From Veillonellaceae bacterium (GTDB lineage: Bacteria > Bacillota_C > Negativicutes > UBA1444): a stretch of 64,000 nucleotides of DNA. A model generated the notes under the pieces. It saw nothing but the letters and a program-made list of their open reading frames with translations. It did no database searches and was not told where the DNA came from. Made by a program: the position numbers and the translations under genes. Position 1 is the first letter of the stretch, and each line of letters begins with the position of its first letter. Shown here in pieces: positions 4,084 through 20,678 of this stretch. The stretch spans positions 1 through 64,000 of the forward strand of contig JAAZNU010000027.1 in assembly GCA_012798135.1 (NCBI GenBank), in the 5' to 3' direction.

Positions 4084-4121
4084 GCACCGGCTTAAGGTTT
4101 CAAAAAACAGGAGGAGGGGAC

Positions 4122-5159: not shown

Positions 5160-5185
5160 ACCCGTCTTCGGCTGGATAAGCCGCA

Positions 5186-5219
5186 GGGGGCCCGTTTCTT
5201 ATTGGCCGGGCCCCCTTTT
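5186..5219 (+). terminator. Intrinsic terminator or attenuator after dctP
   Basis: A 9-bp perfect stem, GGGGGCCCG (5186-5194) with CGGGCCCCC (5207-5215), is followed by TTTT. It lies inside the operon. It probably lowers expression of the membrane subunits relative to the abundant binding protein, although an independent downstream promoter is also possible. Confidence 0.8.
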
Positions 5220-5302
5220 CTTCTACATGGGCATGACTTTGGCAATCATTATTATTTATTATAGAAGCATCTGCGGCTCTAGTATATTTTGGGGGTGACG
5301 CT

Positions 5303-5776
5303 TTGTTCTGGAAAGTTTTCGATTCCCTGGAGGACTGGTTCCTGGTTATTACGCTCGGACTCATGCTGATTCTGAATTTTGCCAACGTGGTGTCCCGGTA
5401 CTGCCTGAGCACATCGATTGCGTTCACCGAGGAATTGACCACCAATCTGTTTGTCTGGAGCAGTTTCATCGGGGCGGCGGGGGCCGCCAAACGGGGCGCG
5501 CACCTCGGGTTCGACCTGCTGGTCAATTTCCTGCCGGCGCCGGTGCGGCGAGTGGTATCCGCCCTGGTTACCCTGCTGACGTTGGGCATGTTTGCGCTTC
5601 TGTTTTATTATGGCATTGAAATGATTCAGACACAGATCATGTTGAAGCAGGAAACGCCGGCGCTGGGTTGGCCGGAATGGATTGTCAGCCTGGCCCTGCC
5701 GGTCAGCTCCGTGTTCTGCTTCGTCCGCTTCGCCCAGGCGGGCTGGATCGCCTGGAAGAAAGGGGGAGCCAAATAA
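5303..5776 (+). CDS. dctQ: TRAP transporter small permease subunit (DctQ family)
   Basis: A 157-residue protein with four predicted membrane helices, typical of the small TRAP subunit, which partners the large permease in sodium-coupled uptake of the solute delivered by DctP. It starts with TTG after a GGGGGTG site. Its stop codon TAA overlaps the ATG of dctM (TAATG), indicating translational coupling. The FWKVFDSLEDW start and the NVVSRYCL segment after helix 1 are family-like. Confidence 0.87.
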   Translation: MFWKVFDSLEDWFLVITLGLMLILNFANVVSRYCLSTSIAFTEELTTNLFVWSSFIGAAGAAKRGAHLGFDLLVNFLPAPVRRVVSALVTLLTLGMFALLFYYGIEMIQTQIMLKQETPALGWPEWIVSLALPVSSVFCFVRFAQAGWIAWKKGGAK

Positions 5777-7077: not shown

Positions 7078-7096
7078 CAAAGGGGGTCCCTGAACC

Positions 7097-8935
7097 ATGG
7101 CTTCAGAAATCAAAATGCCGCAACTCGGCCTGACGATGACCGAAGGAACCGTAACCCGCTGGTTCAAACAGGCGGGGGATGCGGTGGCCGAAGGCGAAGT
7201 CCTGTTCGAGGTGGCGACGGACAAAATCACCAATCAGATCGAATCCACGGCGGCCGGCACGTTGCTGCAAATCCTGGTGGAAGAAGGACAGACCGTACCG
7301 GTTCAGGCCGTCGTCGGCATTGTCGGCGCGCCTGGCGAAGTGGTGGCTCCGGCGGCGTCCGTTGCAACTCCGGCGCCCACCCCGGCTCCCCTGGCGGCGG
7401 CTCCTGCCGATCCGGCTGCTACGGCTTCAGCTGCGCCGGCAGCCCCGGCAACAGTTGCCGGACCGGCAGCCGAGGAAATCAAGATGCCGCAGCTCGGACT
7501 GACGATGACCGAGGGCACCGTAACCCGCTGGTTTAAAAATGCAGGAGAAACGGTGGCCCACGGCGAAATCCTGTTCGAAGTGGCGACGGACAAGATCACC
7601 AATCAGATCGAATCCACGGCGGCGGGCACACTGCTGCAGATTCTGGTGGAAGAAGGCCAGGTCGCACCGGTGCAGGCTGTCTTGGCCTACATCGGCGAAC
7701 CCGGAGCGGCAACGGGAGCGGCGGCCGCCGCTCCGGCGGCTGCCCCGACAACCGCCCCGGCAACCGCTCCGGCCACGGCGGCTCCGGCGGCAACGGCCGG
7801 CGTGCCGGCGCAAACAGACGGCGACGGCTGGGTGAAAGCCTCGCCGGCGGCTCGCAAACTGGCGAAGGAAATGAACGTAGACCTAGCGAAAGTCACGGCG
7901 ACCGGTCCCGACGGCCGAGTCGTCGAAGCTGACGTGCTGGGCTTCGGCTGGGTGAAAGCCTCGCCGGCGGCCCGCAAGGCGGCCAAAGACCGCGGCATTG
8001 ACCTGGCCTCCGTCAACCCGACCGGCCCCTACGGCCGGGTCGTGGAACGCGATGTGCTGGCCTATGCCGAGAACAAACCTGCGGCGGTCAAAGTCAGCCC
8101 GCTGGCCGCTAAGATGGCGCCGGACCTGGGCGTGGACCTGGCCGGCATCGACAAGGAAGGCCGGATCATGAAGGCGGATGTCCTGGCGGCGGCCAAACCG
8201 GCGGCAGCGCCTGTCACCGCCCCGGCAGCCGTAGCGGCGGCCCCGGCCAAGGCGGCGCTCAAGACCAGGCCGCTGGTCGGCATGCGCAAGGTGATCGCCG
8301 ACCGGATGCAGCAGTCCTGGAACGCGGCGCCGCATGTCCACCTGACGGTGGAAGTCGACATGACCAACGCGCTGGCCCTCAAGGATCAACTGGCCAAAGC
8401 GTCGGGACAGAAAGCCTCGGTCACGGAAATCATTATCAAATGCGCGGCGCAGGTGCTGATGGAAATGCCGGTCGTCAATGCCAGCGTCGTCGGCAACCAG
8501 ATCGTCTATCACGAGTCCGCCGCTGTGGGCGTGGCGGTATCGCTGGACGACGGACTGATCGTGCCGGTGCTCCGGGAAGCGGAGAAGAAGTCGATCCGGG
8601 AAATCCGATCGGCGGTCGTGGATCTGGGCGCCCGGGCCCGCGCCGGCAAACTGCTGCCGGACGAAATTTCCGGCGGCACCTTTACGGTGACCAATCTCGG
8701 TATGTTCGGCACCGACCACTTCACGCCGGTCATCAATCCGCCGGAAAGTGCGATTCTGGCCGTATGCCGGACGGTTGACAAACCCGTCGTCGTAGGCGGA
8801 CAGATCGTGATCCGGCCGATGTGCAACTGCGTGCTGGCGTTCGATCACCGCTTGGTCGACGGCGCCGTCGGCGCCAAATACATGGCCCGGTTCCGGGAAC
8901 TTATGGAAAACCCCTTGCTGCTTCTGATCGGCTGA
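7097..8935 (+). CDS. acoC: Dihydrolipoyl acetyltransferase E2 with two lipoyl and three E3-binding domains
   Basis: A 612-residue core subunit of the acetoin dehydrogenase complex. Domains in order: lipoyl domain 1 (1-80, modified Lys43), an Ala/Pro linker, lipoyl domain 2 (124-205, Lys166), a second Ala/Pro linker, and three consecutive peripheral-subunit-binding domains at about 246-282, 286-322 and 331-366. A third linker and the CoA acyltransferase domain (about 390-612) follow, the latter with the DHRLVDG active-site motif. The usual number of subunit-binding domains is one. The first two copies begin with the same ten-residue segment VKASPAARK and are nearly identical at the DNA level with a 120-base period, which indicates recent tandem duplication. 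It probably scaffolds E1 and Lpd. Confidence 0.93.
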   Translation: MASEIKMPQLGLTMTEGTVTRWFKQAGDAVAEGEVLFEVATDKITNQIESTAAGTLLQILVEEGQTVPVQAVVGIVGAPGEVVAPAASVATPAPTPAPLAAAPADPAATASAAPAAPATVAGPAAEEIKMPQLGLTMTEGTVTRWFKNAGETVAHGEILFEVATDKITNQIESTAAGTLLQILVEEGQVAPVQAVLAYIGEPGAATGAAAAAPAAAPTTAPATAPATAAPAATAGVPAQTDGDGWVKASPAARKLAKEMNVDLAKVTATGPDGRVVEADVLGFGWVKASPAARKAAKDRGIDLASVNPTGPYGRVVERDVLAYAENKPAAVKVSPLAAKMAPDLGVDLAGIDKEGRIMKADVLAAAKPAAAPVTAPAAVAAAPAKAALKTRPLVGMRKVIADRMQQSWNAAPHVHLTVEVDMTNALALKDQLAKASGQKASVTEIIIKCAAQVLMEMPVVNASVVGNQIVYHESAAVGVAVSLDDGLIVPVLREAEKKSIREIRSAVVDLGARARAGKLLPDEISGGTFTVTNLGMFGTDHFTPVINPPESAILAVCRTVDKPVVVGGQIVIRPMCNCVLAFDHRLVDGAVGAKYMARFRELMENPLLLLIG

Positions 8936-8957
8936 TTTCATAACTCGTAATATGACC

Positions 8958-8980
8958 GGGGCATCCGTTGCGGATGCCCC
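8958..8980 (+). repeat. Perfect hairpin between acoC and lpd
   Basis: GGGGCATCCG (8958-8967) and CGGATGCCCC (8971-8980) form a 10-bp perfect stem with a 3-base loop. It ends 8 bases before the AGGAGG site of lpd. There is no T tract, so it is unlikely to be a terminator; it may set mRNA processing, stability or lpd translation. Confidence 0.7.
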
Positions 8981-9000
8981 GCTTCAACAGGAGGATTATC

Positions 9001-10401
9001 ATGGCAAAAAAAGTAATCGTAATCGGCGGCGGCCCTGGCGGCTATGTGGCGGCGATTCGGGCGGCCCAGCTCGGTGCGGAGACGCACCTGATCGAAAAGG
9101 AAAACCTGGGCGGAACCTGCCTGAACGTAGGCTGCATCCCGACCAAGGCCCTGCTGCACACTTCGGAATTGTACCGCATGGTGAAACACGGCGAGCGGAT
9201 CGGTCTGAAGGGAGACTCCGTCACGCTGGACTGGCCGGCGCTGCTGAATCGCAAGCAGAGCGTCGTCCGGCGTCTCGTCGGCGGTGTGGGCGGCCTGCTC
9301 AAGGCCAACGGCGTGGCCGTGCACAAGGGGGTCGGTGAAGTCGCCGGCGTCGGCACGGTCAAAGTACACGGCGACAAAGAAGAAGTTCTGACCGCCGATG
9401 TTATCATCGTGGCCAGCGGTTCCGTGCCGGTCAAACTGAACTTCCCCGGTGCCGACTTGCCGGGCGTGATCGACAGCACCGGTGCGCTTTCTCTGCCGAA
9501 GCCCCCCGCTTCGATGGTCATTGTCGGCGGCGGCGTCATCGGGATTGAGATTGGCGCCCTGTATGCAGCGCTGGATTGCAAAGTCACGGTCGTGGAACTG
9601 CTGCCGGAAATTCTGCCCGGCATTGATTCGGAAATCGCCGCGACCCTGAAACAGACCCTGGCCAAAGAAGGCGTGGTTTTCATGAACGGCGCCAAGCTGG
9701 ACTCCATCACTCAGGCGGCCGGCGGACTGGCGGCCAAAGTGCTGGTCGGCCCCGAAACCAAGGAAATCACCGCCGAAACCGTGCTGGTCGCGGTGGGCCG
9801 GCGCGCCTACACCGACGGCGCCGGGCTGGAAGCGGCCGGTGTCAAGCTGGAACGCGGCAAAGTCGTCGTCGACGCCAACTATCGGACGAATGTGCCGGGG
9901 ATTTATGCCATCGGTGATTGCAACGGAATCACCATGCTGGCCCATGCCGCCTCCCATCAGGGAATCGCTGCCGTGGAGCACGCCCTGGGCCATGGCGCGG
10001 CCGGGCATGGACAGCCGATCGTGCCGGCCTGTATCTATACCAGTCCGGAAGCGGCGGCGGTCGGCATCACCGAAGACAAGGCGAAGGAACAGGGGATCGC
10101 CTACAAGAAGGGCGTATTCCCGCTTGCCGGCAATGGCAAGTCGATGATTGACGAAGGCGAAGCCGGCTTCATCAAGATTCTGGCCGGCGCCAAGTATGGC
10201 GAAATTCTCGGCGTCCACATGGTCGGCCCGCGCGTGACCGAAATGATCGGCGAGGCGACGCTGGCCATGCGCCTGGAAGCGACCGTGGACGAACTGGTCA
10301 CGACCATTCACGCCCATCCGACGGTGGCCGAGGCGATCGGTGAAGCGGCGCTGGCCGTCGACAGCTTGGCGATTCACTGGCCGCCGGCTGCGAAAAAATA
10401 G
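9001..10401 (+). CDS. lpdA: Dihydrolipoamide dehydrogenase (E3)
   Basis: A 466-residue FAD disulfide oxidoreductase that reoxidises the lipoyl arms of AcoC and reduces NAD. The N-terminal FAD motif GGGPGG is at 9-14, the redox-active pair is Cys40/Cys45 in GGTCLNVGC, a second dinucleotide fold begins at VIVGGGVIG (about 173), and the C-terminal catalytic His439 and Glu444 pair lies in HPTVAE. ATG 9001 has an ideal AGGAGG site. The last base of the stop codon is the first base of the lipB start codon, so the two are tightly coupled. The product may also serve other 2-oxoacid complexes. Confidence 0.93.
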   Translation: MAKKVIVIGGGPGGYVAAIRAAQLGAETHLIEKENLGGTCLNVGCIPTKALLHTSELYRMVKHGERIGLKGDSVTLDWPALLNRKQSVVRRLVGGVGGLLKANGVAVHKGVGEVAGVGTVKVHGDKEEVLTADVIIVASGSVPVKLNFPGADLPGVIDSTGALSLPKPPASMVIVGGGVIGIEIGALYAALDCKVTVVELLPEILPGIDSEIAATLKQTLAKEGVVFMNGAKLDSITQAAGGLAAKVLVGPETKEITAETVLVAVGRRAYTDGAGLEAAGVKLERGKVVVDANYRTNVPGIYAIGDCNGITMLAHAASHQGIAAVEHALGHGAAGHGQPIVPACIYTSPEAAAVGITEDKAKEQGIAYKKGVFPLAGNGKSMIDEGEAGFIKILAGAKYGEILGVHMVGPRVTEMIGEATLAMRLEATVDELVTTIHAHPTVAEAIGEAALAVDSLAIHWPPAAKK

Positions 10402-11078
10402 TGAACCCCTCGTTGCTCTGTTTACCGGCGGGCCTGGTTTCGTATACGGAGGGGCTGTCCCTCCAGAAACAGGCCCGCGCCCTGGTGGAAGCCGGCAAGT
10501 ACGACGGCGTGCTGCTGTTGCTGGAGCACCGGCCTGTGATCACGGCGGGGCGCGGCGGCGGCCGGGAAAATCTCGTCGCCTCCCCGGCGGAACTGGCCGA
10601 AGCCGGCATCGAGTTCGTGGAAAGCGACCGGGGCGGCAACGTGACCTGCCACAATCCAGGACAGTTGGTCGGTTATCCGATTTTGAATCTGGCCTGTTGG
10701 CGGCAGGATGTGCATTGGTATGTCGACCGGTTGGAGGAAGTGCTGATCCGGACCCTGGTGGAATACGGCGTCCACGCCGGCCGCAAGGCCCGCTATACCG
10801 GGGTGTGGGTCGGCAACAGCAAGATCACGGCGATCGGCGTGAGCGTCCGGCACTGGATCACGGGGCACGGATTTGCGCTGAACGTCCGCAACGATCTGAC
10901 CCTGTTCCGTTCCATCGTTCCCTGTGGAATCGAGGAGTTCGGCGTCACCAGCCTGCAGCGGCTGGGCGTGGCGGTCGGCCTGCAGGAAATAGAGGGTTGT
11001 TTGTCCAATAAGTTCTGTGAAGTGTTCGACGCCAGGGTTGCGACAGAACCGAGGGAGGGACGACGTGGAGAAGCATAA
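10401..11078 (+). CDS. lipB: Octanoyl-ACP:protein octanoyltransferase
   Basis: A 225-residue cytoplasmic enzyme that moves octanoate from acyl carrier protein to lipoyl domains, the first step of lipoylation. The substrate-pocket segment RGGNVTCHNPGQLVGYP is a slight variant of the usual RGG-VT-HGPGQLVGYP. The catalytic pair is visible as Lys141 (in SKITAIGV) and Cys175 (in PCGIEEFG). GTG 10401 overlaps the lpd stop by one base. It sits next to acoC and upstream of lipA, so the operon supplies its own lipoylation enzymes. Confidence 0.9.
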   Translation: MNPSLLCLPAGLVSYTEGLSLQKQARALVEAGKYDGVLLLLEHRPVITAGRGGGRENLVASPAELAEAGIEFVESDRGGNVTCHNPGQLVGYPILNLACWRQDVHWYVDRLEEVLIRTLVEYGVHAGRKARYTGVWVGNSKITAIGVSVRHWITGHGFALNVRNDLTLFRSIVPCGIEEFGVTSLQRLGVAVGLQEIEGCLSNKFCEVFDARVATEPREGRRGEA

Positions 11079-11547
11079 GGGGTTTGTTTCGGTGGAGGCG
11101 CACAAGGGGCGCACCATCGCCGCCCGGCTGTTGCCGGGAACGGACCTGGTGACTGGTATCGAGGAAGTCTGCAGGGTTCATCACGTCCAATACGGCTATT
11201 TCGGCAGCGTCATGGGCAGCCTGCGGCAGGCGACCTATGTGATTGCGGTGCCGGAGCCGGCGGCACCGATGGGCTTCAAGTATTGCGAGCCGATTGTGGA
11301 GCAGGGGCCAATCGAATTCATCTGCGGTCAGGGCGTGATCTGCCAGTCGGAAAAAGGTGAGCTGCTGACGCACCTGCATGCGCATGGCGTGACCCCGGAC
11401 GGCAAGAATTTCGCCGGCCATTTTTCACCCGGCGGCAATCCGGTGCTGGCGACGATCGATCTTGTGATCGTGGAAGTGGACGGCGCCAAACTGATGCGGC
11501 GCTTCGATCCGGCGGTCGGCCTGGTCATGTTCAGCCCGGAGCTGTGA
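11065..11547 (+). CDS. PPC/DUF296-domain protein
   Basis: A 160-residue protein of the PPC (plants and prokaryotes conserved, DUF296) fold. A His-rich motif, HLHAHGVT followed by GHF (about 113-130), resembles the metal-binding histidines of bacterial members; an early GSVMGSLRQA segment is also typical. GTG 11065 follows GAGGGAGGGA and overlaps the end of lipB by 14 bases, so it is co-translated. Plant relatives bind DNA, but the bacterial function is not established. Its position between lipB and lipA is conserved-looking and suggests a role linked to lipoylation or to control of the operon. That link is inference. Confidence 0.8.
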   Translation: MEKHKGFVSVEAHKGRTIAARLLPGTDLVTGIEEVCRVHHVQYGYFGSVMGSLRQATYVIAVPEPAAPMGFKYCEPIVEQGPIEFICGQGVICQSEKGELLTHLHAHGVTPDGKNFAGHFSPGGNPVLATIDLVIVEVDGAKLMRRFDPAVGLVMFSPEL

Positions 11548-11594
11548 GCGGCGGAACCGGGGATATTTTTTCGGAAGAAAAGGTGTGAGGCAAT

Positions 11595-12488
11595 ATGAAA
11601 TCGGATATGGCGGAGCGGGCGCCCTGGTTGATCCGGAGGATTCCGGCGGGCGGCAACACGGAAAAAGTGCAGGGACTGCTGGAGGGATTGCGGCTTCACA
11701 CAGTGTGCCAAAGCGCGTCTTGCCCGAACCAGGGCGAGTGTTTTCATTCGGGAACCGCGACTTTTTTGATCCTGGGCGGGATTTGCACGCGCGGCTGCCG
11801 ATTTTGCGGGGTTCCCAAGGGCCAGGCGCCGTTGCCGCCGGATCCGTCGGAACCGGCGAATGTGGCGGATGCGGTCAAGACCCTGGGCCTGAAACATGCC
11901 GTCGTCACTTCGGTGACCCGGGATGATTTGCCGGATGGCGGCGCGGGACAGTTCGTCGCCTGCATCCGGGAGATTCGCCAGGCAAAACCGGATACAACCG
12001 TGGAAGTGCTGACGCCGGATTTCGCCGGCAACGCCTGGGCGTTGCAGAGCGTACTCGCGGAAAAACCGGAAGTCTTCAATCACAATGTGGAGACCGTGCC
12101 CCGCCTGTATGCGACGGTCCGGCCCCAGGCGAACTACATGCGGTCGCTGGCCGTGCTGCAGCAGGCGTCATCGGCCGGGATCGACCGGGTCAAGAGCGGC
12201 CTGATGCTGGGCCTGGGCGAAACTGAGGACGAAGTGGCGGAGGTTCTGGAAGACTTGCTGGCGGTCGGGGTCAACTGCCTGACGCTCGGGCAATATCTGC
12301 GGCCATCCAAGGAGCATCTGCCGGTAGTCGAGTATGTCCATCCCGACCAGTTCAAGAAGCTGGCCGACCTCGCGTATCAACAGGGCTATCTTCATGTCGC
12401 TGCCGGGCCGTTGGTGCGGAGTTCCTATCACGCCGGCGCTGTTTTTGACGGACCCGTTGACAGGGGCGGAAGGCAAGGTTTAGAATAG
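11595..12488 (+). CDS. lipA: Lipoyl synthase (radical SAM)
   Basis: A 297-residue radical SAM enzyme that inserts two sulfurs into octanoyl-lysine. Both iron-sulfur sites are present: the auxiliary-cluster cysteines 38, 43 and 49 (C-X4-C-X5-C) and the radical-SAM cysteines 64, 68 and 71 in CTRGCRFC. The C-terminal RSSYHAG motif supplies the Ser ligand of the auxiliary cluster. It is the last gene of the aco operon. The promoter of the next operon lies inside its final codons. Confidence 0.95.
   Translation: MKSDMAERAPWLIRRIPAGGNTEKVQGLLEGLRLHTVCQSASCPNQGECFHSGTATFLILGGICTRGCRFCGVPKGQAPLPPDPSEPANVADAVKTLGLKHAVVTSVTRDDLPDGGAGQFVACIREIRQAKPDTTVEVLTPDFAGNAWALQSVLAEKPEVFNHNVETVPRLYATVRPQANYMRSLAVLQQASSAGIDRVKSGLMLGLGETEDEVAEVLEDLLAVGVNCLTLGQYLRPSKEHLPVVEYVHPDQFKKLADLAYQQGYLHVAAGPLVRSSYHAGAVFDGPVDRGGRQGLE
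12457..12486 (+). promoter_or_regulatory. Promoter of the lysine-riboswitch operon
   Basis: TTGACA (12457-12462), an 18-bp spacer and TAGAAT (12481-12486) overlap the 3' end of lipA. The start of transcription should be near 12493, just before the riboswitch aptamer. Confidence 0.6.
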
Positions 12489-12518
12489 ACCTGAAGTTTC
12501 ATATTCGCAGGGAGATCC

Positions 12519-12683
12519 TGAGAATAGAGGAGCGGACAACAAGAGTAACGCCGGCGAGACAGGAATCGACGACCCGGCGCGAAAGGGTTGCTCGCCGAAG
12601 AATGGCGGATCGCCGGATTGCCATTCTGGGCGCGCATCGAACAGATGCGTGACTGTCACCAGTTTTGGTGAAGCGCTATCTCA
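12519..12683 (+). ncRNA. Lysine riboswitch (L box) aptamer
   Basis: All the conserved L-box blocks are present in order: ATAGAGGAGC (12524-12533), AAGAGTAA (12541-12548), GAAAGGG with GCCGAAG (12581-12600), CTGGG (12626-12630), CTGTCACCAG with its hairpin partner TTGGTGA, and the closing GCGCTATCTC (12673-12682). The P1 helix pairs GAGAATAG (12520-12527) with CTATCTC (12676-12682). The spacing matches the Bacillus lysC leader. High lysine should stabilise P1, release the downstream terminator and switch the operon off. It controls an amino acid ABC transporter and an oxidoreductase rather than lysine biosynthesis. Confidence 0.93.
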
Positions 12684-12725
12684 TCCAGCGGCCGAAAACG
12701 CTATCCGTGTTTTTCCAAAGGCCGC

Positions 12726-12760
12726 GCACCGGGAGATAGACTCGCCGGTGCTTTCTTTTT
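12726..12760 (+). terminator. Terminator of the lysine riboswitch
   Basis: Stem GCACCGG (12726-12732) with CCGGTGC (12745-12751), then TTTCTTTTT. The start and loop of this hairpin contain GAGATAG (12733-12739), the exact complement of the P1 strand CTATCTC (12676-12682). Pairing of these two blocks would form the antiterminator when lysine is low. Confidence 0.88.
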
Positions 12761-12792: not shown

Positions 12793-13938
12793 GTGTCCAA
12801 GAACTTGCGTGTACTGTCCCTGATCCTTGCCGTGGTCTTCCTCGTGGTTGCCGCCGGTTGCGGCGGTGGCGCTCCCGCGGCCGACAAAAAAGGCAAACTG
12901 ACGGTCGCGATGGTCAATCCCCTGACCGGTGACGCCGCGACGTACGGCGTGAGCCATAAAAACGGCCTGGAACTGGCTCTGTCCGAAATCAACAAGGCGG
13001 GCGGCGTGAAAGGCCAACAAATTGAACTGGTGACCCACGACGACGCCGGCGATCCCAAACAGGCGGCGGCCGGCGCCCAGAAATTCGCCGACATGAAGAG
13101 TGTGCTGGCGATCGTCGGCTCCTGCCTCAGCTCCAATACGCTGGCGATGGTGCCGATCACCGACAAAGCCAAGGTTCCGCACTCCGCCATTTCGTCGAGT
13201 TCGCCCAAACTGTCCGGCATGAGCAAATATTTCTTCCGGATGGCGGTGCAGGACGATAAGGTCGGCGGATTGATGGTCGATCTGGCCCAGAACAAATTCA
13301 AACCCAAAAAAGTGGCCCTGATGTACCTGAACAACGATTACGGCAAAGGCCTGCTGGCGTCGATCGATCCCCAGATTAAAAAATACGGGATCACCCTGAC
13401 CTCCGCCCAGACCTATCTGGCCAACGACAAGGACTACTCGGCCCTGCTGACGAAAGTGAAGGCGGAAGCGCCGGATGTCCTGCTCATCGGCAGCACGTAC
13501 ACCGACGGCGGACTGATTGTGAAGCAGGCCCGGGAAATGGGTCTGACCATGCCGATCGTCGGACCGACCGGCCTGTATAGCCCCAAATACATGGAGATCG
13601 CCGGCAAGGCGGTGGAAAACACCTATTTCCTCGGCGTGTTCGTGCCGACCAATCCGGACCCGAAAGTTCAGGAATTCGTGAAAAAATACAAAGAAAAATA
13701 CGGTATGGAACCGGATACCTTTGCGGCGTTGGCGTATGACCAGGGCTATGTTCTGAAGGATGCCATGGAAAAAGCAGCCGCCAAAGGCAATGTCACCCGG
13801 GAAAGCCTGCGCGAAGCAATGGCCGGCAGTTCCTACAAGGGAATCACCGGTACGGTCACGTTTGACGCCAAAGGCGACTGGGTCCGCCCGTATCTGTATG
13901 TAACCGTGAAAGACGGCAAATTCGTCGTCGCCCAATAA
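12793..13938 (+). CDS. livJ: Branched-chain-type amino acid ABC transporter, binding lipoprotein
   Basis: A 381-residue type I periplasmic-binding protein of the LivJ/Leu-Ile-Val family. A lipoprotein signal ends in VVAAGC with Cys23. The GDAATYGVSHKNG segment (about 45-57) and the repeated ASSSPKLSG-type ligand-loop region fit the family. GTG 12793 follows GGAGGAG. As the first gene behind a lysine riboswitch, it probably binds lysine or a lysine-derived compound; the family also includes aromatic, urea and amide binders, so the substrate cannot be read from sequence alone. Confidence 0.9.
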   Translation: MSKNLRVLSLILAVVFLVVAAGCGGGAPAADKKGKLTVAMVNPLTGDAATYGVSHKNGLELALSEINKAGGVKGQQIELVTHDDAGDPKQAAAGAQKFADMKSVLAIVGSCLSSNTLAMVPITDKAKVPHSAISSSSPKLSGMSKYFFRMAVQDDKVGGLMVDLAQNKFKPKKVALMYLNNDYGKGLLASIDPQIKKYGITLTSAQTYLANDKDYSALLTKVKAEAPDVLLIGSTYTDGGLIVKQAREMGLTMPIVGPTGLYSPKYMEIAGKAVENTYFLGVFVPTNPDPKVQEFVKKYKEKYGMEPDTFAALAYDQGYVLKDAMEKAAAKGNVTRESLREAMAGSSYKGITGTVTFDAKGDWVRPYLYVTVKDGKFVVAQ

Positions 13939-13966
13939 TCGGCCGGAAAACGAATTCAACAAGAAG

Positions 13967-13996
13967 GCGCGGGAGCGGAACATCCGTTTCCCGCGC
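13967..13996 (+). terminator. Hairpin between livJ and livH, weak terminator or mRNA stabiliser
   Basis: An 8-bp stem GCGCGGGA (13967-13974) with TCCCGCGC (13989-13996) is followed only by ATTTTCT. The weak T tract suggests partial termination or protection of the livJ message, giving more binding protein than permease. Confidence 0.55.
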
Positions 13997-14019
13997 ATTT
14001 TCTCAGCGGAGGTGTCGAC

Positions 14020-14904
14020 TTGGTCCTCATTCAGCAAATTATCAACGGGATGGCGCTGGGAGGAATCTATTCCCTGATTGCGATCGGCTGGACGGTGGTG
14101 TTTGGCATTGTCGGCCTGATCAACTGGACGCATGGCGAAGTATTCATGATTGGCGCCTTTGTGGGCTTTTTTTTGGTGTCCGTATATAAGGTGAACCTGA
14201 TAGCGGCCCTGATCATCGCGATGCTGGTTAGCGGCTTCGTGGCCCTGATGATCGACCGGCTGGCCTACCGGCCGCTGCGGACCAGTCCCAAACTGGCCTC
14301 GTTCATCACCGCGCTGGGGGCGTCCACATTTCTGCGGTATCTGGCGGCATTGGTCTGGGAACCGCATGCCCGGGCGTATCCACCGACCTTTGACTTCAAG
14401 GTGATGCAGATCCCCTTCGGGGAAAGCACACTGACCATAAACAGCCTGCAATTGTTCATTTTCGCCGTGACGCTCGTCATCATGGCACTGCTGCAATGGT
14501 TCATCACGCGGACCATGATGGGAAAAGCGATGCTGGCGGCATCCCAGGACTTTGAAATGGTTGGGCTCATGGGCGTGGAAGTGGAGCGCCTGGTGATGCT
14601 GACCTTCGGCGTCAGCGGCATGCTGGGCGGTGCGGCCGGCGTGCTGGTCGGCGTGCTGTATGCGATCGATCCGATGATGGGTTCGATGGCCGGCTTGAAA
14701 GGCTGGGCCGTGGCGGTGCTGGGCGGTGTCGGCAGTATTTCCGGCGCCATGATCGCGGGCATCCTGCTCGGGGTGGCGGAAAACGTGTCTTCCGCCTATG
14801 TGTCCTCGGGCTATCGGGATGCGATCGCCTTCGTGGCGATGATCCTGACGCTCGTCATCAAGCCGACCGGCTTGATGGGTTTCAAGTTCGAAGAGAAAGT
14901 TTAG
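14020..14904 (+). CDS. livH: Branched-chain-type amino acid ABC transporter permease (LivH)
   Basis: A 294-residue membrane protein with about eight hydrophobic spans. The N-terminal INGMALGGIYSLIAIGWT segment and the cytoplasmic coupling loop with MLAASQDFEMVGLMGV (about 175-190) are LivH hallmarks. The TTG start follows CGGAGGTG. It pairs with LivM to form the translocation pore. livM starts 12 bases downstream. Confidence 0.92.
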   Translation: MVLIQQIINGMALGGIYSLIAIGWTVVFGIVGLINWTHGEVFMIGAFVGFFLVSVYKVNLIAALIIAMLVSGFVALMIDRLAYRPLRTSPKLASFITALGASTFLRYLAALVWEPHARAYPPTFDFKVMQIPFGESTLTINSLQLFIFAVTLVIMALLQWFITRTMMGKAMLAASQDFEMVGLMGVEVERLVMLTFGVSGMLGGAAGVLVGVLYAIDPMMGSMAGLKGWAVAVLGGVGSISGAMIAGILLGVAENVSSAYVSSGYRDAIAFVAMILTLVIKPTGLMGFKFEEKV

Positions 14905-14916
14905 GAGGGCAAGCGC

Positions 14917-15912
14917 ATGTCTTGGAAGCAATGGCTGTCGGGCTGGCGTGGCGCTGTCCTGTTTTCAGCCGTTATTATCGGCGTCAGTTTTATCGACTCG
15001 GTCGTCGAGCGGCCGGAGTACCTGTTTCCACCCTATTTCAAGCATATTCTGCTGGTTTGCCTGATCTACAGCATCGCGGCGCTCAGCCTGAATTTCGTGG
15101 CCGGCTATATCGGTCAGACTTCCCTCGGCCATGCCGCCTTTTTCGGCTTGGGGGCCTATACGTCGGCGCTGTTGACCCAGGTGTTGCACTGGCCGTTCTG
15201 GCCGGCCTTTTTGGCTGCCGGCGCCGTGGCCGCCTTGGTCGGGGTTCCGCTCGGCGCGCCGGCGTTGCGGGTGCGCGGACCGTTCCTGGTGGTTGTGACT
15301 TATGGCTGCGGCGAAGTGTTCAAATATGTGGCGCTGAATCTCGACATCACCGGCGGGCCGGCGGGATTGCCCGGGCTGATTTCTCCGGCGCTCGGCATCA
15401 GTTTCAACGATATCGGCGCAACCGGCAAGGAGGCCTTTATTGTGCTGGCCCTGGCGCTGGCCTTGTTCCTGGCTTTCTTTTCGCAACGCCTCGCCAATTC
15501 CCGCGTCGGCCAGGCGTTTGCGGCGATCCGGGAAGACGAGATCGCGGCGTCGGCCATGGGAATCAATGTTGCCTATCATAAACTGCTGGCCTTCGTCCTG
15601 TCGGCTTTTTTTGCCGGCCTGGCCGGCAGCCTGCTCGCTCATTACCTGTCGTTTGTCAGCCCGGACATGCTGAGCTCCGGCGAATCGATCATGATGTTCA
15701 CGATGGTCATCGTCGGTGGCGCCCGCAGCATATACGGCTGTTTCCTGGGAGCGTTCCTGCTGACGATTCTGCCGGAAGTTCTGCGGATGCTGAAGGACAT
15801 GATCGGCTTGCCGTTTGATCCCTGGCTGGTGTTGTTCGGCCTGGTTCTGATCTTGATGATGCGGGTTCGGCCGCAGGGAATCCTCGGCGCCGACACCGTG
15901 TTCCGCCGATAA
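14917..15912 (+). CDS. livM: Branched-chain-type amino acid ABC transporter permease (LivM)
   Basis: A 331-residue membrane protein, second half of the LivHM pore, with an N-terminal extension typical of LivM. The YIGQTSLGHAAFFGLGAYT segment (about 65-83), RVRGPFLVVVTYG and the coupling loop RIGQAF-like NSRVGQAFAAIREDE are characteristic. livG follows after a short gap with its own GGAGG ribosome site. Confidence 0.92.
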   Translation: MSWKQWLSGWRGAVLFSAVIIGVSFIDSVVERPEYLFPPYFKHILLVCLIYSIAALSLNFVAGYIGQTSLGHAAFFGLGAYTSALLTQVLHWPFWPAFLAAGAVAALVGVPLGAPALRVRGPFLVVVTYGCGEVFKYVALNLDITGGPAGLPGLISPALGISFNDIGATGKEAFIVLALALALFLAFFSQRLANSRVGQAFAAIREDEIAASAMGINVAYHKLLAFVLSAFFAGLAGSLLAHYLSFVSPDMLSSGESIMMFTMVIVGGARSIYGCFLGAFLLTILPEVLRMLKDMIGLPFDPWLVLFGLVLILMMRVRPQGILGADTVFRR

Positions 15913-15924
15913 GGAGGACTGGCG

Positions 15925-16710
15925 TTGCTGCTACGAACAGAGAAACTCAAAAAAGTTTTCGGCGGGTTGACCGCGGTCAACGAGATCGATTTTTCGGTGG
16001 ACGCCGGCAAAATCGCCGCCATTATCGGCCCCAACGGCTCCGGAAAAACCACGTTTTTTAATGTGATCAGCGGGATTCTGCCGGCCTCCGGCGGCAAAAT
16101 CCTGTTCAACGACCAGGATGTCACGGCCCAAAAAGCCCACGAAATGACCGCCCTGGGCATGGCGCGGACCTTTCAGAACATCCGGCTGTTCCCCAATCTC
16201 ACCGCTCGCGACAATATTATCCTGGGCCGCTACAGCCGGACCTTCTCCGGACTGTGGGACGGGTTGTTCAATACGCCCCGCCTGCGTCGGGAAAAGCAGG
16301 AAAATGAAACTAAAGCGGCGGAACTGCTGGAATTTGTCGGTTTGCCCAAGGTGGCCGACCATATGGCGAAAAATCTGCCCTACGGTGCGCAGCGACGGCT
16401 GGAAATCGCCCGGGCGTTGGCCAGCGAGCCCCGCCTGCTGCTGCTGGACGAGCCGGCGGCCGGCATGAATCCGAAAGAGTGCGATGAATTGCTGTCGTTG
16501 ATCCTGCGGCTGAAGGAATGCGGAATTACCATTCTGCTGATCGAGCATCAGATGCGGCTGGTGATGAATATTGCCGAACAGGTGACGGTGTTCGACCATG
16601 GCGTGAAGCTCGCCGAAGGCTTGCCGGCGGATGTCCGCAACGATCCCGCCGTGGTGGAGGCATATATCGGAAGCGAGGTGCAGCGCTTTGTTAGACGTAA
16701 AAGACATTAA
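15925..16710 (+). CDS. livG: Branched-chain-type amino acid ABC transporter ATPase (LivG)
   Basis: A 261-residue ABC ATPase. Walker A is GPNGSGKT (about 36-43), the signature region is YGAQRRLEIARAL, and Walker B is LLLLDEPAAGMN, the last being the LivG-type form. The start is TTG after AAGGAGG. The end of the gene overlaps the livF start, so the two ATPases are translated together. It energises transport with LivF at the inner face of the membrane. Confidence 0.93.
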   Translation: MLLRTEKLKKVFGGLTAVNEIDFSVDAGKIAAIIGPNGSGKTTFFNVISGILPASGGKILFNDQDVTAQKAHEMTALGMARTFQNIRLFPNLTARDNIILGRYSRTFSGLWDGLFNTPRLRREKQENETKAAELLEFVGLPKVADHMAKNLPYGAQRRLEIARALASEPRLLLLDEPAAGMNPKECDELLSLILRLKECGITILLIEHQMRLVMNIAEQVTVFDHGVKLAEGLPADVRNDPAVVEAYIGSEVQRFVRRKRH

Positions 16711-17389
16711 TGTATATTATGGCGCGATCCACGCGGTCCGGAACGTCAGCCTGGAAGTGAATGCCGGCGAGATCGTGTCGATTATCGGCGCCAACGGCGC
16801 CGGCAAGTCGACCATCCTGAAAACGCTGGTCGGCCTGTTGCGCAGCAAAACCGGCGAAATTTCCTTCGAAGGCCAAAATATCAGCCAGTTGTCGCCGGCG
16901 GCGATCGTCCGGCAGGGAATTGCCCTGGTGCCGGAAGGTCGCCGGGTGTTTCCGCGGCTGTCGGTGGAAGACAATTTGCTGCTCGGCGGTTATGCCCGCA
17001 AAGACGGAGAAATCGCCAAGGACATTCAACGGATCTACGAGATGTTCCCGCGGCTGGCCGAGCGCCGCAAACAGAATGCCGGCACGCTGTCCGGCGGCGA
17101 GCAACAGATGCTGGCCACCGGCAGGGGGATGATGAGCCGGCCCAAACTGTTACTGCTGGATGAACCGTCGATGGGCCTGGCGCCGGTGCTGGTGCATCAA
17201 ATTTTTGAGACCATCCTGGATATCAACGAACAGGGGACGACGATCCTGCTGGTGGAACAGAATGCCCACATGGCCCTGTCCATCGCCGATCGCGGTTATG
17301 TGCTGGAGACCGGTTCCGTGGTATTGTCCGGCGATGCGGCGGAACTGATCGATAATGATGAGGTGCGTTGCGCCTACTTGGGGGAATAA
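16688..17389 (+). CDS. livF: Branched-chain-type amino acid ABC transporter ATPase (LivF)
   Basis: A 233-residue ABC ATPase. Walker A is GANGAGKST, the signature is LSGGEQQM, Walker B is LLLLDEPSMGLAP, and the LVEQN switch motif is present. I chose TTG 16688, 7 bases after GAGGTG, because it starts the protein at the usual LDVKDINVYYG. A longer upstream reading would lie within livG in another frame. The gene overlaps livG by 23 bases and ends 6 bases before the oxidase genes. Confidence 0.92.
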   Translation: MLDVKDINVYYGAIHAVRNVSLEVNAGEIVSIIGANGAGKSTILKTLVGLLRSKTGEISFEGQNISQLSPAAIVRQGIALVPEGRRVFPRLSVEDNLLLGGYARKDGEIAKDIQRIYEMFPRLAERRKQNAGTLSGGEQQMLATGRGMMSRPKLLLLDEPSMGLAPVLVHQIFETILDINEQGTTILLVEQNAHMALSIADRGYVLETGSVVLSGDAAELIDNDEVRCAYLGE

Positions 17390-17395
17390 GCGAAA

Positions 17396-17704
17396 ATGAG
17401 AGTGGAAAAACATCCGGTGCTTGGCGACCGGGAGGTCGGCAGGCTTGTTTCCATTTCCGTCGACGGAATGGAAATCCAGGCGGTGGAGGGAGAACCGATC
17501 GCGGCGGCGCTGTTGGCGCAAGGGCTGCGGGTATTCCGGCGAACGCCGCGGCTGCATGAGCCGCGGGGTATTTTTTGCGGAATCGGCCGTTGCACGGACT
17601 GCATCATGACGGTGGACGGCGTGCCGAATGTCCGCACCTGCGTGACGCCCGTGCGTTCCGGCATGGTCATCACTTCCAACCTGAATAAGGGGGGGGGAGA
17701 ATGA
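17396..17704 (+). CDS. Small 2Fe-2S subunit of an opine-oxidase/HcnA-like dehydrogenase
   Basis: A 102-residue ferredoxin-like protein with plant-type cluster ligands Cys61, Cys66, Cys69 and Cys82 (CGIGRCTDC then C). The fold matches HcnA of hydrogen cyanide synthase, the small subunit of opine oxidases and the N-terminal domain of sarcosine oxidase alpha. It probably carries electrons between the flavoprotein subunits encoded next. The reading ends in a run of nine G bases (17689-17697) that also serves as the ribosome site for the next gene. A one-base backward slip there would join this protein in frame to its neighbour. Confidence 0.87.
   Translation: MRVEKHPVLGDREVGRLVSISVDGMEIQAVEGEPIAAALLAQGLRVFRRTPRLHEPRGIFCGIGRCTDCIMTVDGVPNVRTCVTPVRSGMVITSNLNKGGGE
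17689..17697 (+). repeat. Nine-G tract at the junction of two oxidase genes
   Basis: Nine consecutive G bases lie in the last codons of the 2Fe-2S gene, immediately before ATGATG of the FAD subunit gene. The tract doubles as a ribosome binding site. Adding one G, or a -1 ribosomal slip, puts the upstream frame exactly in frame with the downstream gene. Confidence 0.85.
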
Positions 17705-18798
17705 TGGCGGACTCCAATACTTTTGACGTCGTGATCGTCGGCGCCGGGCCGGCCGGCCTGGCCGCCGCCATTGAAACCGCGCGCCGGGGCGCCCGGACCT
17801 TGGTCGTCGATGAAAATGGCAAACCCGGCGGACAATTATTCAAGCAGATTCATAAATTTTTCGGCTCGCATGAGCACCGGGCCGGCATCCGGGGCTTCGA
17901 GATCGGTCGCCAACTGCTGGCCGACGCGGCGGCGGCCGGGGTGACGGTCTGGCTGGACTCCGTCGTGCACGGGCTGTTTGAGAACAAGGTGGCGATCCTG
18001 CAGGACGGCCGCCAGGTCACGGTCGAAGCCGGCCGGATCATCCTGGCGACCGGGGCCACGGAAAACGCCGTCGCCTTCCCCGGCTCAACTCTTCCGGGAG
18101 TCATGGGCGCCGGGGCGATCCAGACGATGATCAACGTGCACCGGGTCTTGCCCGGAAAACGGTTCATCATGCTGGGGTCCGGCAATGTCGGACTCATTGT
18201 CAGTTATCAGTTGATGCAGGCAGGCGCCGAAGTGTTGGCCCTCGTTGAGGCCATGCCGTCCATCGGCGGCTATGGCGTGCATGCCGCCAAAATCCGGCGC
18301 GCCGGTGTGCCGATCCTGGTGGGGACCACCATCAGCCGGGCGTTTGGCGACGGCAAAGTCGAAGGCGTCGAGCTGGCGTCGGTGGGGCCGGACTTCAAAA
18401 CAATCCCGGGATCGCAGCGGACCTTGGCCGCCGATACCGTGGGTCTGGCGGTGGGTCTGTCGCCGCTGACGGAGCTGGCCTGGATGGCCGGCTGCGAATT
18501 TGTGTTCTCGCCCCGGTTGGGCGGGCATGTGCCGTTGCATGACGAGAACATGCGGACCACGCTGCCGACGCTGTACGTGGCCGGCGACATCACCGGCGTC
18601 GAGGAAGCGTCGACGGCGATGGAGGAAGGCCGTCTGGCGGGGATCGCCGCGGCCGAATCGCTGGGATTGGCCACGGAACAGGCTGCCGCCGACAAGGACG
18701 CCGTGCGGCGACGGATCGACGTTCTGCGGTCCGGGCCCTTCGGCGAAGGCCGGCGGACGGCGAAGGCCGAAATTCTCAAGCAACGGGCGATGCGGTAA
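17701..18798 (+). CDS. FAD/NAD(P)-dependent oxidoreductase, HcnB/OoxA-like subunit
   Basis: A 365-residue flavoprotein. The N-terminal GAGPAGLAAAIETARRG is the FAD-binding fold, a second dinucleotide motif GSGNVGLIVSYQ follows at about 158-170, and YVAGDITGVEEAS near 297-309 is the late FAD-contact motif. It resembles HcnB and opine oxidase subunit A, but lacks the C-terminal BFD-type cluster domain those proteins often carry; that domain is on the next gene instead. ATG 17701 and ATG 17704 are both possible starts. It overlaps the 2Fe-2S gene by 4 bases. Confidence 0.88.
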   Translation: MMADSNTFDVVIVGAGPAGLAAAIETARRGARTLVVDENGKPGGQLFKQIHKFFGSHEHRAGIRGFEIGRQLLADAAAAGVTVWLDSVVHGLFENKVAILQDGRQVTVEAGRIILATGATENAVAFPGSTLPGVMGAGAIQTMINVHRVLPGKRFIMLGSGNVGLIVSYQLMQAGAEVLALVEAMPSIGGYGVHAAKIRRAGVPILVGTTISRAFGDGKVEGVELASVGPDFKTIPGSQRTLAADTVGLAVGLSPLTELAWMAGCEFVFSPRLGGHVPLHDENMRTTLPTLYVAGDITGVEEASTAMEEGRLAGIAAAESLGLATEQAAADKDAVRRRIDVLRSGPFGEGRRTAKAEILKQRAMR

Positions 18799-18808
18799 GG
18801 AGGATCCA

Positions 18809-19573
18809 ATGGAAGGCGTGAAATTAACCGGCGCGCTCGGCGCCGAAGAACAGAAGCAAGTATTGCCGCCCGAGGCGCGGACGGCGCGGGGACCGGTGGC
18901 GGTCATCGAATGTGTGCAGCAGATTCCCTGCAATCCCTGTGAGAAGGCTTGTCCGTTCGGGGCGATCGAAATCGGTCCCGATATCACCCAACTGCCCCGC
19001 CTGGACCTGGAAAAATGCCGCGGCTGCGGCATCTGCCTGAGCAAATGTCCGGGGCTGGCCATTTTTTTGGTGGATGCTTCCCAAAGCGAAACGGAAGCGT
19101 TGGTGATGATGCCGTACGAGTACCTGCCGCTGCCGGCGGTCGGCGACAACGTCGACGGCGTGGACCGGACCGGGCGGTTCGTCACCAAGGCCCGGACCGT
19201 CAAGGTCGATACCGGCGCGCAGCGCCAGGGGACCGCGATCGTGACCCTGGCCGTGCCCAAAGAGTTCATGCATGAGGTGCGGAGTTTCCGGATTCCGGCC
19301 CCCGACGAAGTATTCCTGTGCCGCTGCTGTGAAGTCTCGGAAACGGAAGTTCGCCAGGCGGTGCGCGAAGGCGCCCGGACGGTGGCGGCCGTCAAAACCC
19401 GGACCCGGGCCGGTATGGGCCTGTGTCAGGGCCGAACCTGCCGGCGTCTCATCAGCCGGGTGATCGCCGAGGAAACCGGGCAGTCGCCGGCGGATATCCT
19501 GCCGCCGACGAGCCGGCCGCCGGTGAGGACGATTTCGCTGGCTGCCCTGGCGGGAGGTGAAGACGATGAGTAA
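18809..19573 (+). CDS. Iron-sulfur protein with two 4Fe-4S motifs and a BFD-like 2Fe-2S domain
   Basis: A 254-residue electron carrier. Cys41, 44 and 48 (with Cys35 as possible fourth ligand) and Cys70, 73, 76 and 80 form a ferredoxin domain. A C-terminal BFD-like domain has CRCC at 171-174 and Cys206/Cys211. HcnB-type enzymes often carry the BFD domain at their own C-terminus, so here it has been split off and fused to a dicluster ferredoxin. It probably links the oxidase to the cell's low-potential electron pool. ATG 18809 follows AAGGAGG. It overlaps the next gene by 8 bases. Confidence 0.85.
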   Translation: MEGVKLTGALGAEEQKQVLPPEARTARGPVAVIECVQQIPCNPCEKACPFGAIEIGPDITQLPRLDLEKCRGCGICLSKCPGLAIFLVDASQSETEALVMMPYEYLPLPAVGDNVDGVDRTGRFVTKARTVKVDTGAQRQGTAIVTLAVPKEFMHEVRSFRIPAPDEVFLCRCCEVSETEVRQAVREGARTVAAVKTRTRAGMGLCQGRTCRRLISRVIAEETGQSPADILPPTSRPPVRTISLAALAGGEDDE

Positions 19574-20678
19574 CGCGGCGGAAGTCATTGTTGTCGGCGG
19601 CGGCGTCATCGGTTCCTCTGTCGCCTACTATGCGACGAAAGCCGGCCGGAAAGTCATCCTGCTGGATCGCGGCGATATCGCGGCAGGCACATCCAGCGCC
19701 TGCGACGGGTTCATCATCCTGCAGTCGAAGAATCCGGGACCCCATCTGGACCTGGCCCTGGAAAGCGCAGCCATGTACCGGACACTGTCGGCGGAACTGG
19801 ACTATGATCTCGAATATATGCCCTGCGGCGGCATGGTCGTCGCGGAAACGGAAAAACAGGCGGCGCTGCTGCGGGGATTGATTCAGAAGCAGCAGGCGGC
19901 GGGCCTGTCCGTCGAACTGTTGCCAATCGCCGAGGCACGGCGCAGCGAACCACTCCTGGCGGAGGAATTGTGGGGTGCCGCGTACTGCCAGGAAGACGCC
20001 CAGGTCAATCCGATCCGGGTGGCGCAGGGCTTTGCCCAGGCCGCCCGCCGGCTGGGAGCGCAGATTCGCACCGGCGTCGAGGCGAAGGGCCTGCTGGTGG
20101 AGAACGGAAAAGTCTGCGGCGTGCAAACCGCCGAGGGGGCACTGCGGGCCGACTATGTCGTTAATGCCGCCGGCGTCTGGGCGCCGGAACTGGTTGCCGC
20201 CCACGGGCTGCAGATTCCCATCCAGCCGCGCCGGGGCCAGATCCTGGTGACGGAGCCGCTGCCGTCGATGCTGCGGCATGTCCTGCTCTGCGCCTGCTAT
20301 CTGATCGCCAAGCATCATCCGGAGGAGCTGGATCCGAACGAACGCCAGCATCGGCTGGGCGTCGGGCTGGCGGTGGAACAGACCGCCCATGGCGGCCTGC
20401 TGGTCGGCAGTACCCGTGAATTCGCCGGCTTCGATCGGCGGACCACCCTGGCCGGCATCGAGGCGGTGGCCCAACATGCCCGCCGGATTCTGCCGGCGCT
20501 GGCCAATGTCAATGTCATCCGGACTTTTTCCGGCCTGCGTCCCTATACGCCGACCGGGTTGCCGTTTCTTGGCCCGGTGGCGGAACTGCCCGGCCTGATT
20601 ATGGCAGCCGGCCACGAAGGGGACGGCATCGCCCTGGCGCCGGTAACCGGCAAAAAAGTGGCGGAGTTTCTGAAGTAA
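19566..20678 (+). CDS. FAD-dependent amino acid/opine oxidase, HcnC/DAO-like catalytic subunit
   Basis: A 370-residue D-amino-acid-oxidase-fold flavoprotein. The FAD motif GGGVIGSSVAYYATKAG begins at residue 10; TSSACDGFI near 40-50 and SGLRPYTPTGLPFLGP near 320-335 match the glycine oxidase/sarcosine oxidase/HcnC group. It is likely to oxidise the C-N bond of an amino acid or N-substituted amino acid delivered by the Liv transporter. ATG 19566 follows GGGAGGTG. It is the last gene of the riboswitch operon, ahead of a strong terminator. Confidence 0.88.
   Translation: MSNAAEVIVVGGGVIGSSVAYYATKAGRKVILLDRGDIAAGTSSACDGFIILQSKNPGPHLDLALESAAMYRTLSAELDYDLEYMPCGGMVVAETEKQAALLRGLIQKQQAAGLSVELLPIAEARRSEPLLAEELWGAAYCQEDAQVNPIRVAQGFAQAARRLGAQIRTGVEAKGLLVENGKVCGVQTAEGALRADYVVNAAGVWAPELVAAHGLQIPIQPRRGQILVTEPLPSMLRHVLLCACYLIAKHHPEELDPNERQHRLGVGLAVEQTAHGGLLVGSTREFAGFDRRTTLAGIEAVAQHARRILPALANVNVIRTFSGLRPYTPTGLPFLGPVAELPGLIMAAGHEGDGIALAPVTGKKVAEFLK

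Follow-up and report, generated by a model that had tools for sequence, protein, structure and literature searches.

A lysine-riboswitch operon joining a Liv-type importer to a four-subunit flavo-iron-sulfur dehydrogenase, and its possible role in the salvage of lysine precursors

In a 64,000-nucleotide stretch of contig JAAZNU010000027.1 from a Veillonellaceae bacterium (assembly GCA_012798135.1; the whole stretch is here called the window), a lysine riboswitch (L-box) precedes nine same-strand genes encoding a Liv-type importer and a four-subunit flavo-iron-sulfur dehydrogenase. The same four subunits follow an L-box in four other genomes, and relatives of the catalytic subunit lie among genes of the diaminopimelate (DAP) pathway to lysine. 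With an L-box in front of pump and enzyme genes, and with relatives of the enzyme located among genes for lysine precursors, the arrangement suggests that these bacteria recycle DAP-type precursors, of the kind found in cell walls, by a route not yet described. Tentatively, we read the complex as forming tetrahydrodipicolinate by oxidation of a DAP-like dicarboxylic amino or imino acid taken up from outside; versions with an L-box would serve precursor salvage and the dap-linked ones catabolism. We hold this to be quite possible rather than probable.

In this scheme, the L-box would allow transcription into the operon when lysine is scarce. The Liv importer would then take up an exogenous DAP-related dicarboxylic amino or imino acid, perhaps a peptidoglycan-derived form of DAP or a ring compound related to it, for example piperidine-2,6-dicarboxylate. 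The dehydrogenase would oxidise the C–N bond of this acid, giving tetrahydrodipicolinate for lysine synthesis. With lysine plentiful, the P1 helix of the riboswitch would form, the terminator would fold and the operon would be off. Related complexes without an L-box might carry out the same reaction for catabolism, with DapB, DapA, Asd and LysC running in reverse to yield pyruvate, aspartate and ATP. The sequences show the operon, its riboswitch and terminator, the repeated L-box link and the dap-gene neighbours of relatives; the OFF sign of the switch, the substrate, the product and the direction of the pathway are inferred.

The operon and its riboswitch

The nine genes occupy positions 12793-20678 (Table 1) and all have strong Pfam matches. 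An original prediction, made from the sequence of the window alone, had described nine tightly spaced or overlapping genes after a lysine riboswitch, namely livJHMGF followed by 2Fe-2S, FAD, 4Fe-4S/BFD and DAO-like subunits; the coordinates, the Pfam matches and the RF00168 match bear out both the gene set and its spacing. The intergenic gaps are, in order, 81, 12 and 12 bases, an overlap of livG with livF, and then 6, -4, 10 and -17 bases. By Pfam the Liv/HAAT importer is complete, with a binding protein, two permeases and two ATPases. The FAD subunit is of the pyridine-nucleotide-disulphide type (Pfam and NCBIfam), and the start codon of the BFD subunit is the ATG at 18809, within an open frame that itself begins at 18500.

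Table 1. Features of the riboswitch-controlled operon, with positions in the window
Feature	Position	Strand	Evidence
Promoter-like TTGACA-18-TAGAAT	12457..12486	+	Consensus scan, 11/12 matches; a pattern match, by itself no evidence of function
Lysine riboswitch aptamer	12517..12686	+	RF00168 110.6 bits; own model R1 133.3 bits
P1 3' strand CTATCTC, proposed antiterminator strand	12676..12682	+	Sequence; duplex with 12732-12746, -12.3 kcal/mol
Intrinsic terminator: 10-bp hairpin 12726-12751, then T-rich TTTCTTTTT	12726..12760	+	Sequence and fold
livJ, substrate-binding protein (HAAT family)	12793..13938	+	PF13458 E=9e-68
livH permease	14020..14904	+	PF02653 E=9e-42
livM permease	14917..15912	+	PF02653 E=2e-46
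livG ATPase	15925..16710	+	PF00005 and PF12399
livF ATPase; true start probably near the livG end	16631..17389	+	PF00005 E=2e-32
2Fe-2S subunit (gamma-like)	17396..17704	+	PF13510 E=3e-30; C-X4-C-X2-C-X12-C
FAD/NAD-type subunit (alpha-like, without BFD tail)	17701..18798	+	PF07992 E=2e-35; partial soxA TIGR01372 match
4Fe-4S plus BFD [2Fe-2S] subunit, 254 aa	18809..19573	+	PF04324, PF17806, PF00037
DAO-family catalytic subunit	19557..20678	+	Pfam

The riboswitch is the sole Rfam gathering match within the window (E=1.2e-28, against a gathering score of 30), and it is also found by R1, an L-box model of our own built from 18 sequences with that of the window among them. The consensus pattern scan that gave the promoter-like site does not list the terminator. 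Within the terminator hairpin lies GAGATAG (12733-12739), to which the P1 3' strand CTATCTC is an exact 7-nt complement. L-boxes upstream of the catabolic genes kal and kce are reported to act positively (PMC5584792, section 13), so the sign of the window's switch has to be argued from its expression platform. This platform has the layout of an L-box that terminates with lysine bound, and is likely an OFF switch. A lysA-like leader in another genome (G008; G-numbers denote genomes and L-numbers loci as labelled in this analysis) has a similar platform, with its P1 3' strand set against the terminator. The leaders of three further oxidase loci (L107, L108 and L111) share their platform layout with one of the L-boxes of genome G004, which precedes a permease-like gene, and the leader of L141 resembles them.

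Repression by lysine, as originally predicted, is favoured by the exact complementarity and not by the duplex energies alone, which are no better than those of shuffled sequences. The energy of the window's antiterminator duplex is equalled by 35 of 200 shuffles; the corresponding counts are 81 for L107, 39 for L108, 13 for L111 and 54 for L141, and the comparison leaders are no more significant (55 for the G004 permease, 39 for the G008 lysA-like gene). It is because of these energies, and of the L-boxes reported as positive, that the OFF sign is graded no higher than likely. The opposite sign, by which lysine would induce its own catabolism through the complex, is very improbable. The positive kal and kce switches speak for it, and the duplex test does not prove OFF pairing; against it stand the complementarity of the P1 3' strand to the terminator stem-loop, with its parallel in the G008 leader, the match between the oxidase platforms and the permease platform of the same genome, and the operon itself, in which Pfam and NCBIfam scans recognised no kal or kce gene.

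Among the neighbouring genes, a mannonate dehydratase gene follows the operon on the opposite strand. Just upstream of the L-box, at 3109-12488, genes for a transketolase-type protein, DctP, a lipoyl E2, a dihydrolipoyl dehydrogenase, a PCC-domain protein and lipoyl synthase stand in a row, and appear to form a cluster like those for 2-oxoacid or acetoin dehydrogenases.

Recurrence of the L-box before the dehydrogenase genes

Homologues of the window's DAO subunit and LivJ were considered among the 120 of 2842 and 120 of 256 matches listed, respectively. The closest relatives with a genus name among them belong to Sporolituus (DAO 72%, LivJ 71%) and Thermosinus (LivJ 71%). The gene order livM-livG-livF-2Fe2S-FAD-BFD-DAO is preserved on the contig of L001, at 81-87% protein identity; this contig, the only one among the matches listed from a scan of genome contigs, is cut at livM, and within the DNA examined the livJ-first arrangement with its leader is seen in the window only. 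The L001 contig is labelled as part of a Propionivibrio metagenome-assembled genome, in spite of its synteny with the window, and is probably mis-binned. At L005 the order is BFD-DAO-livJ-livH-livM. Among hand-picked homologues on longer contigs (32 for DAO, 47 for LivJ), nine contigs of the same size, one of them from Sporolituus, are shared by the two lists, which points to linkage of DAO and LivJ in those cases and is not proof of gene order. A scan of viral contigs gave nothing useful.

A second group of Bacillota has an L-box directly ahead of the same four subunits, without liv genes. Thirteen genomes of the class of G004 were searched, six of which carry the FAD subunit at E<=1e-85; four of these six (G004, G145, G029 and G175) have the L-box upstream, and in the other two, G250 (L109) and G274 (L143), which carry the same oxidase subunits, no L-box was found in the upstream DNA scanned. 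Eight loci around DAO matches at E<=1e-120 in a 398-genome sample (L106-L113) give a similar picture: Rfam places an L-box directly before the 2Fe-2S gene in L107, L108 and L111, and none before that gene in L106, L109, L110, L112 and L113. R1 matches in 3 of 80 genome loci, namely L002 and L042, which coincide with L107 and L108, and L030. The last was rejected as an association with the oxidase, as its L-box lies on the other strand before a lysA-like gene.

The window group and the G004-type group form one clade of 19 rows in a quick tree (SH-aLRT 98, the only support calculated). Since the anatomy of the operon is confirmed and its regulatory link recurs, the operon is more than a chance neighbourhood. 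As to conservation of the gene set next to L-boxes, put forward with the original prediction as a check, the four subunits recur after an L-box in the four other genomes, there without liv genes. At L107, L108 and L111, the L-box loci with enough DNA for the downstream continuation to be judged, no liv gene lies nearby and the operon continues with a DctM-like permease and a protein of the Asp/Glu-racemase family.

Other riboswitches were noted in these genomes. G004 has four further L-boxes, before a lysA-like gene and three transporter-like genes, as read from translations. In G003 (L096), translations place a lysine riboswitch before a gene whose start resembles DAP dehydrogenase, and L-boxes also before dapA- and lysA-like genes. 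A tandem pair of glycine riboswitch aptamers lies downstream of the L-box oxidase locus L108, at 18072-18277.

DAP-pathway neighbours and the nature of the substrate

A tblastn neighbourhood scan covered the 80 genome loci and L106-L113. Of 52 clade loci, 10 have at least one of asd, dapB, ddh, lysC and a dapA that carries the catalytic motif no more than 8 kb from the DAO gene; none of 28 outgroup loci does (p=0.0096 in a one-sided Fisher test, a statistic that ignores the relatedness of the loci). L107 and L108 were dropped from the rows as duplicates of L002 and L042. The tree and the residue counts given below left out L035 (DAO frame in two pieces), L051 (partial) and the second DAO of L033 (28% identical); L035 and L051 were included in the context tallies, which did not count protein-only rows without DNA.

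The fullest sets of dap genes occur at L035 (asd, lysC, dapA and ddh), L031 (Geosporobacter), and L039 and L041 (Spirochaetales). On one strand, L035 reads asd-lysC-DAO-symporter-regulator-BFD-dapA-2Fe2S-FAD-4Fe4S/BFD-ddh and L039 reads transporter-racemase-DAO-BFD-dapA-2Fe2S-FAD-4Fe4S/BFD-asd-lysC, while L041 has two dapB genes and L036, again from Geosporobacter, has asd and lysC. The ddh product (DAP dehydrogenase) scores 426 bits against a cut-off of 181, and the dapB products 211 and 193 bits against 122. Above their equivalog cut-offs are also Asd of L031 and L039 and dapA of L031, L035 and L039; Asd of L035, whose gene is cut by the contig end, is below. The aspartate kinases pass a subfamily-domain cut-off only, and those of L031 and L035 match their models over the catalytic part, with a poor match towards the C terminus. 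As TIGR00674 is permissive, a dapA call also required the motifs GTTGE and YN-x-P-x-R, which we take to be characteristic of DapA. DapA-like neighbours at L045, L047 and L048 lack YN-x-P-x-R and were rejected, although that of L045 passes the TIGR00674 cut-off. Loci with a true dapA fall at two separate places in the tree, one comprising L004, L009 and L015 and the other the group of L030, L031, L039 and L041. In G007 and G404 a second dapA, next to dapB, is present elsewhere in the genome, and the cluster dapA is thus an extra copy there. At L041, an apparent dapB-aspartokinase-regulatory fusion (8650-9873) was also seen, the C-terminal part of this dapB matching the C-terminal region of aspartate kinase.

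A racemase-family gene (PRK07475) is shared by L107, an L-box locus, and L039, a dap locus, and, together with the dap-gene linkage, is the reason for reading the L-box and dap contexts as one chemistry. Within 9 kb, racemase genes occur at 17, dctM at 16 and taxi at 7 of the 52 clade loci, and at none of the 28 outgroup loci. The predicted fold of the racemase-family protein is only the broad Asp/Glu-racemase/arylmalonate-decarboxylase fold, and a PDB sequence search with it gave 0 matches at E<=0.01. That DctM-like or TAXI-like permeases and this fold accompany many relatives, in clade loci only, would suit a substrate of the aspartate family, such as D-aspartate or an N-substituted aspartate: transporter, racemase and DAO would then make aspartate, and lysC, asd and dapA would carry on from there. 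Such a scheme leaves dapB and ddh in the clusters unexplained, as well as the use of a lysine switch, and the window's own operon has no racemase gene; we consider it highly unlikely. In a Syntrophobotulus-type genome (L106), the same oxidase is flanked by genes for a gamma-glutamyltranspeptidase (10134-11741), which would fit gamma-Glu-DAP fragments, and an ATC-hydrolase-family protein (6223-6741).

The catalytic subunit gives further clues. Four residues mark the clade, K58 (58/58 rows), R287 (58/58), E354 (57/58) and D356 (58/58). They recur in more divergent rows (11/12, 12/12, 12/12 and 11/12, respectively), and each is found in at most 3 of 29 outgroup rows. Y248 and K252 were withdrawn as clade marks because two alignments place them differently. 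The extra basic residues would fit a substrate with a second carboxylate. Among solved folds, three tie as the nearest to the DAO model: those of L-proline dehydrogenase, glycine oxidase and sarcosine oxidase. Filing the protein as a true opine oxidase, sarcosine oxidase or ThiO was rejected on model scores, motif and identity: it scores 222.5 bits for glycine oxidase ThiO (TIGR02352; cut-off 250.8) and 101.9 for soxB (cut-off 529), and the soxA-like parts are spread over three proteins. An Arg-X-Trp motif for FMN is described for opine, D-hydroxyproline and L-proline dehydrogenases in excerpts of PMC4575208. It is present in the Ti-plasmid octopine oxidase OoxB and absent from the window's DAO, which is 25% identical to OoxB and shares with it K58 but neither R287 nor E354.

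LivJ of the window is likewise distant from the branched-chain LivJ of the E. coli type (171.5 bits with the model NF011933, whose cut-off is 477). It retains a serine-rich carboxylate site. At its amino-group site, T259 aligns with Asp or Glu in 4gnr, 3td9, 3ipc, 3ip5 and 4n0q, and across 122 rows this position holds Thr in 94, Pro in 26, Asn in one and a gap in one, and never Asp or Glu. The acidic residue at this site presumably contacts the alpha-ammonium group, as we assume for Glu226 of LIV-BP, and with Thr or Pro in its place LivJ is unlikely to bind a free alpha-amino acid. Both LivJ and DAO would suit a dicarboxylic imino acid that is cyclic or N-blocked. Candidate substrates may thus include forms of DAP, gamma-Glu-DAP and piperidine-2,6-dicarboxylate.

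These findings bear on the substrate that the original prediction had proposed, an N-substituted lysine (lysopine, carboxymethyl-lysine or a saccharopine-like compound) that would be imported and cleaved by the dehydrogenase to lysine and an oxo acid. The likeness to opine oxidases is not borne out by the OoxB comparison, and LivJ lacks the amino-group acid. Release of lysine as the product fits poorly with relatives that cluster with dapA, dapB, asd, lysC and ddh, none of which would process lysine, and the neighbours scanned include no gene recognised as a lysine-releasing partner. A lysine conjugate is therefore unlikely and comes second, while the proposed lysine-repressed salvage of a DAP-type precursor explains more of the evidence.

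Several observations weigh against that salvage as well. In 40 of the 52 clade loci there is no lysine/DAP gene within 8 kb and no L-box ahead of the complex. This count, with the closest solved folds, would favour an L-box that reports starvation only, the Liv proteins importing an amino acid unrelated to lysine and the dehydrogenase serving general amine or imino-acid catabolism of the proline or sarcosine type; the recurrent L-box link and the dap-gene clusters make this distinctly unlikely. The query sequences for dap, asd, lysC and ddh were taken from the clade's own loci, and the dap-linked DAO proteins, which share only 37-48% identity with that of the window (L039, L031 and L004), may act on a different substrate. 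No dapA other than the cluster copy passes the cut-off in G405 (L039), and this copy could therefore be biosynthetic. Of the L-box genomes, G004, G145 and G029 possess dapA as well as dapB, and in G004 there is a lysA-like gene too, so that imported meso-DAP could simply be decarboxylated. The absence of a racemase gene from the window's operon and the shuffle result for its antiterminator tell in the same direction, and LivJ would be ill-suited to free DAP and would better fit a cyclic, aromatic or N-blocked solute. The wider claim, that of a widespread system, mostly of anaerobes, in which such complexes oxidise DAP or a cyclic relative to tetrahydrodipicolinate for a reversed lysine pathway or for riboswitch-controlled salvage, is possible but doubtful.

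Relation to known systems

DAP is part of most Gram-negative cell walls. Should the DAP-type reading be correct, an oxidative route working with reversed biosynthetic enzymes would represent a novel means of feeding on cell walls, in which aspartokinase would make ATP. The L-box regulon would gain a redox complex and a Liv importer, and a testable substrate class would be available for a large family named only 'sarcosine oxidase subunit beta' or 'glycine oxidase' among the matches listed. In titles and abstract starts of the open-licence literature, no work was found that joins tetrahydrodipicolinate, an oxidase and a riboswitch, and a search of that literature gave nothing on genes for carboxymethyllysine degradation.

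The nearest described complexes are OdhABC and OoxAB-NoxAB, which in excerpts of PMC4575208 share with the window's complex a DAO catalytic subunit, a separate FAD subunit, a small 2Fe-2S subunit and an adjoining importer. The window's complex differs in the low identity to OoxB and the missing Arg-X-Trp already described, in its control by a lysine riboswitch, and in the position of the BFD-type 2Fe-2S motif, which belongs to the alpha subunit in OdhABC/OoxAB and to the separate 254-aa 4Fe-4S protein in the window. The archaeal L-proline dehydrogenase PDH1 (PDB 1y56) is 29% identical to the window's DAO over the aligned part. The window's complex is set apart from it by its split subunits, its lysine-linked context and the lack of Arg-X-Trp, a motif of the PDH1 family according to the same excerpts.

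The window's aptamer belongs to the family of the known L-box regulon, whose usual targets are transporters and lysine genes. The main text of PMC5584792 nowhere contains the terms oxidase, FAD, oxidoreductase, sarcosine and branched-chain, and it does not name a Liv importer with a DAO complex as a target. The closest functional parallel is DAP utilisation through LysA, for which the parts of PMC9602339 consulted describe a marine study that reports the LysA route and allows for further routes of DAP use. Both systems would recycle DAP of the peptidoglycan type; LysA decarboxylates it to lysine, whereas the route proposed for the window would be oxidative.

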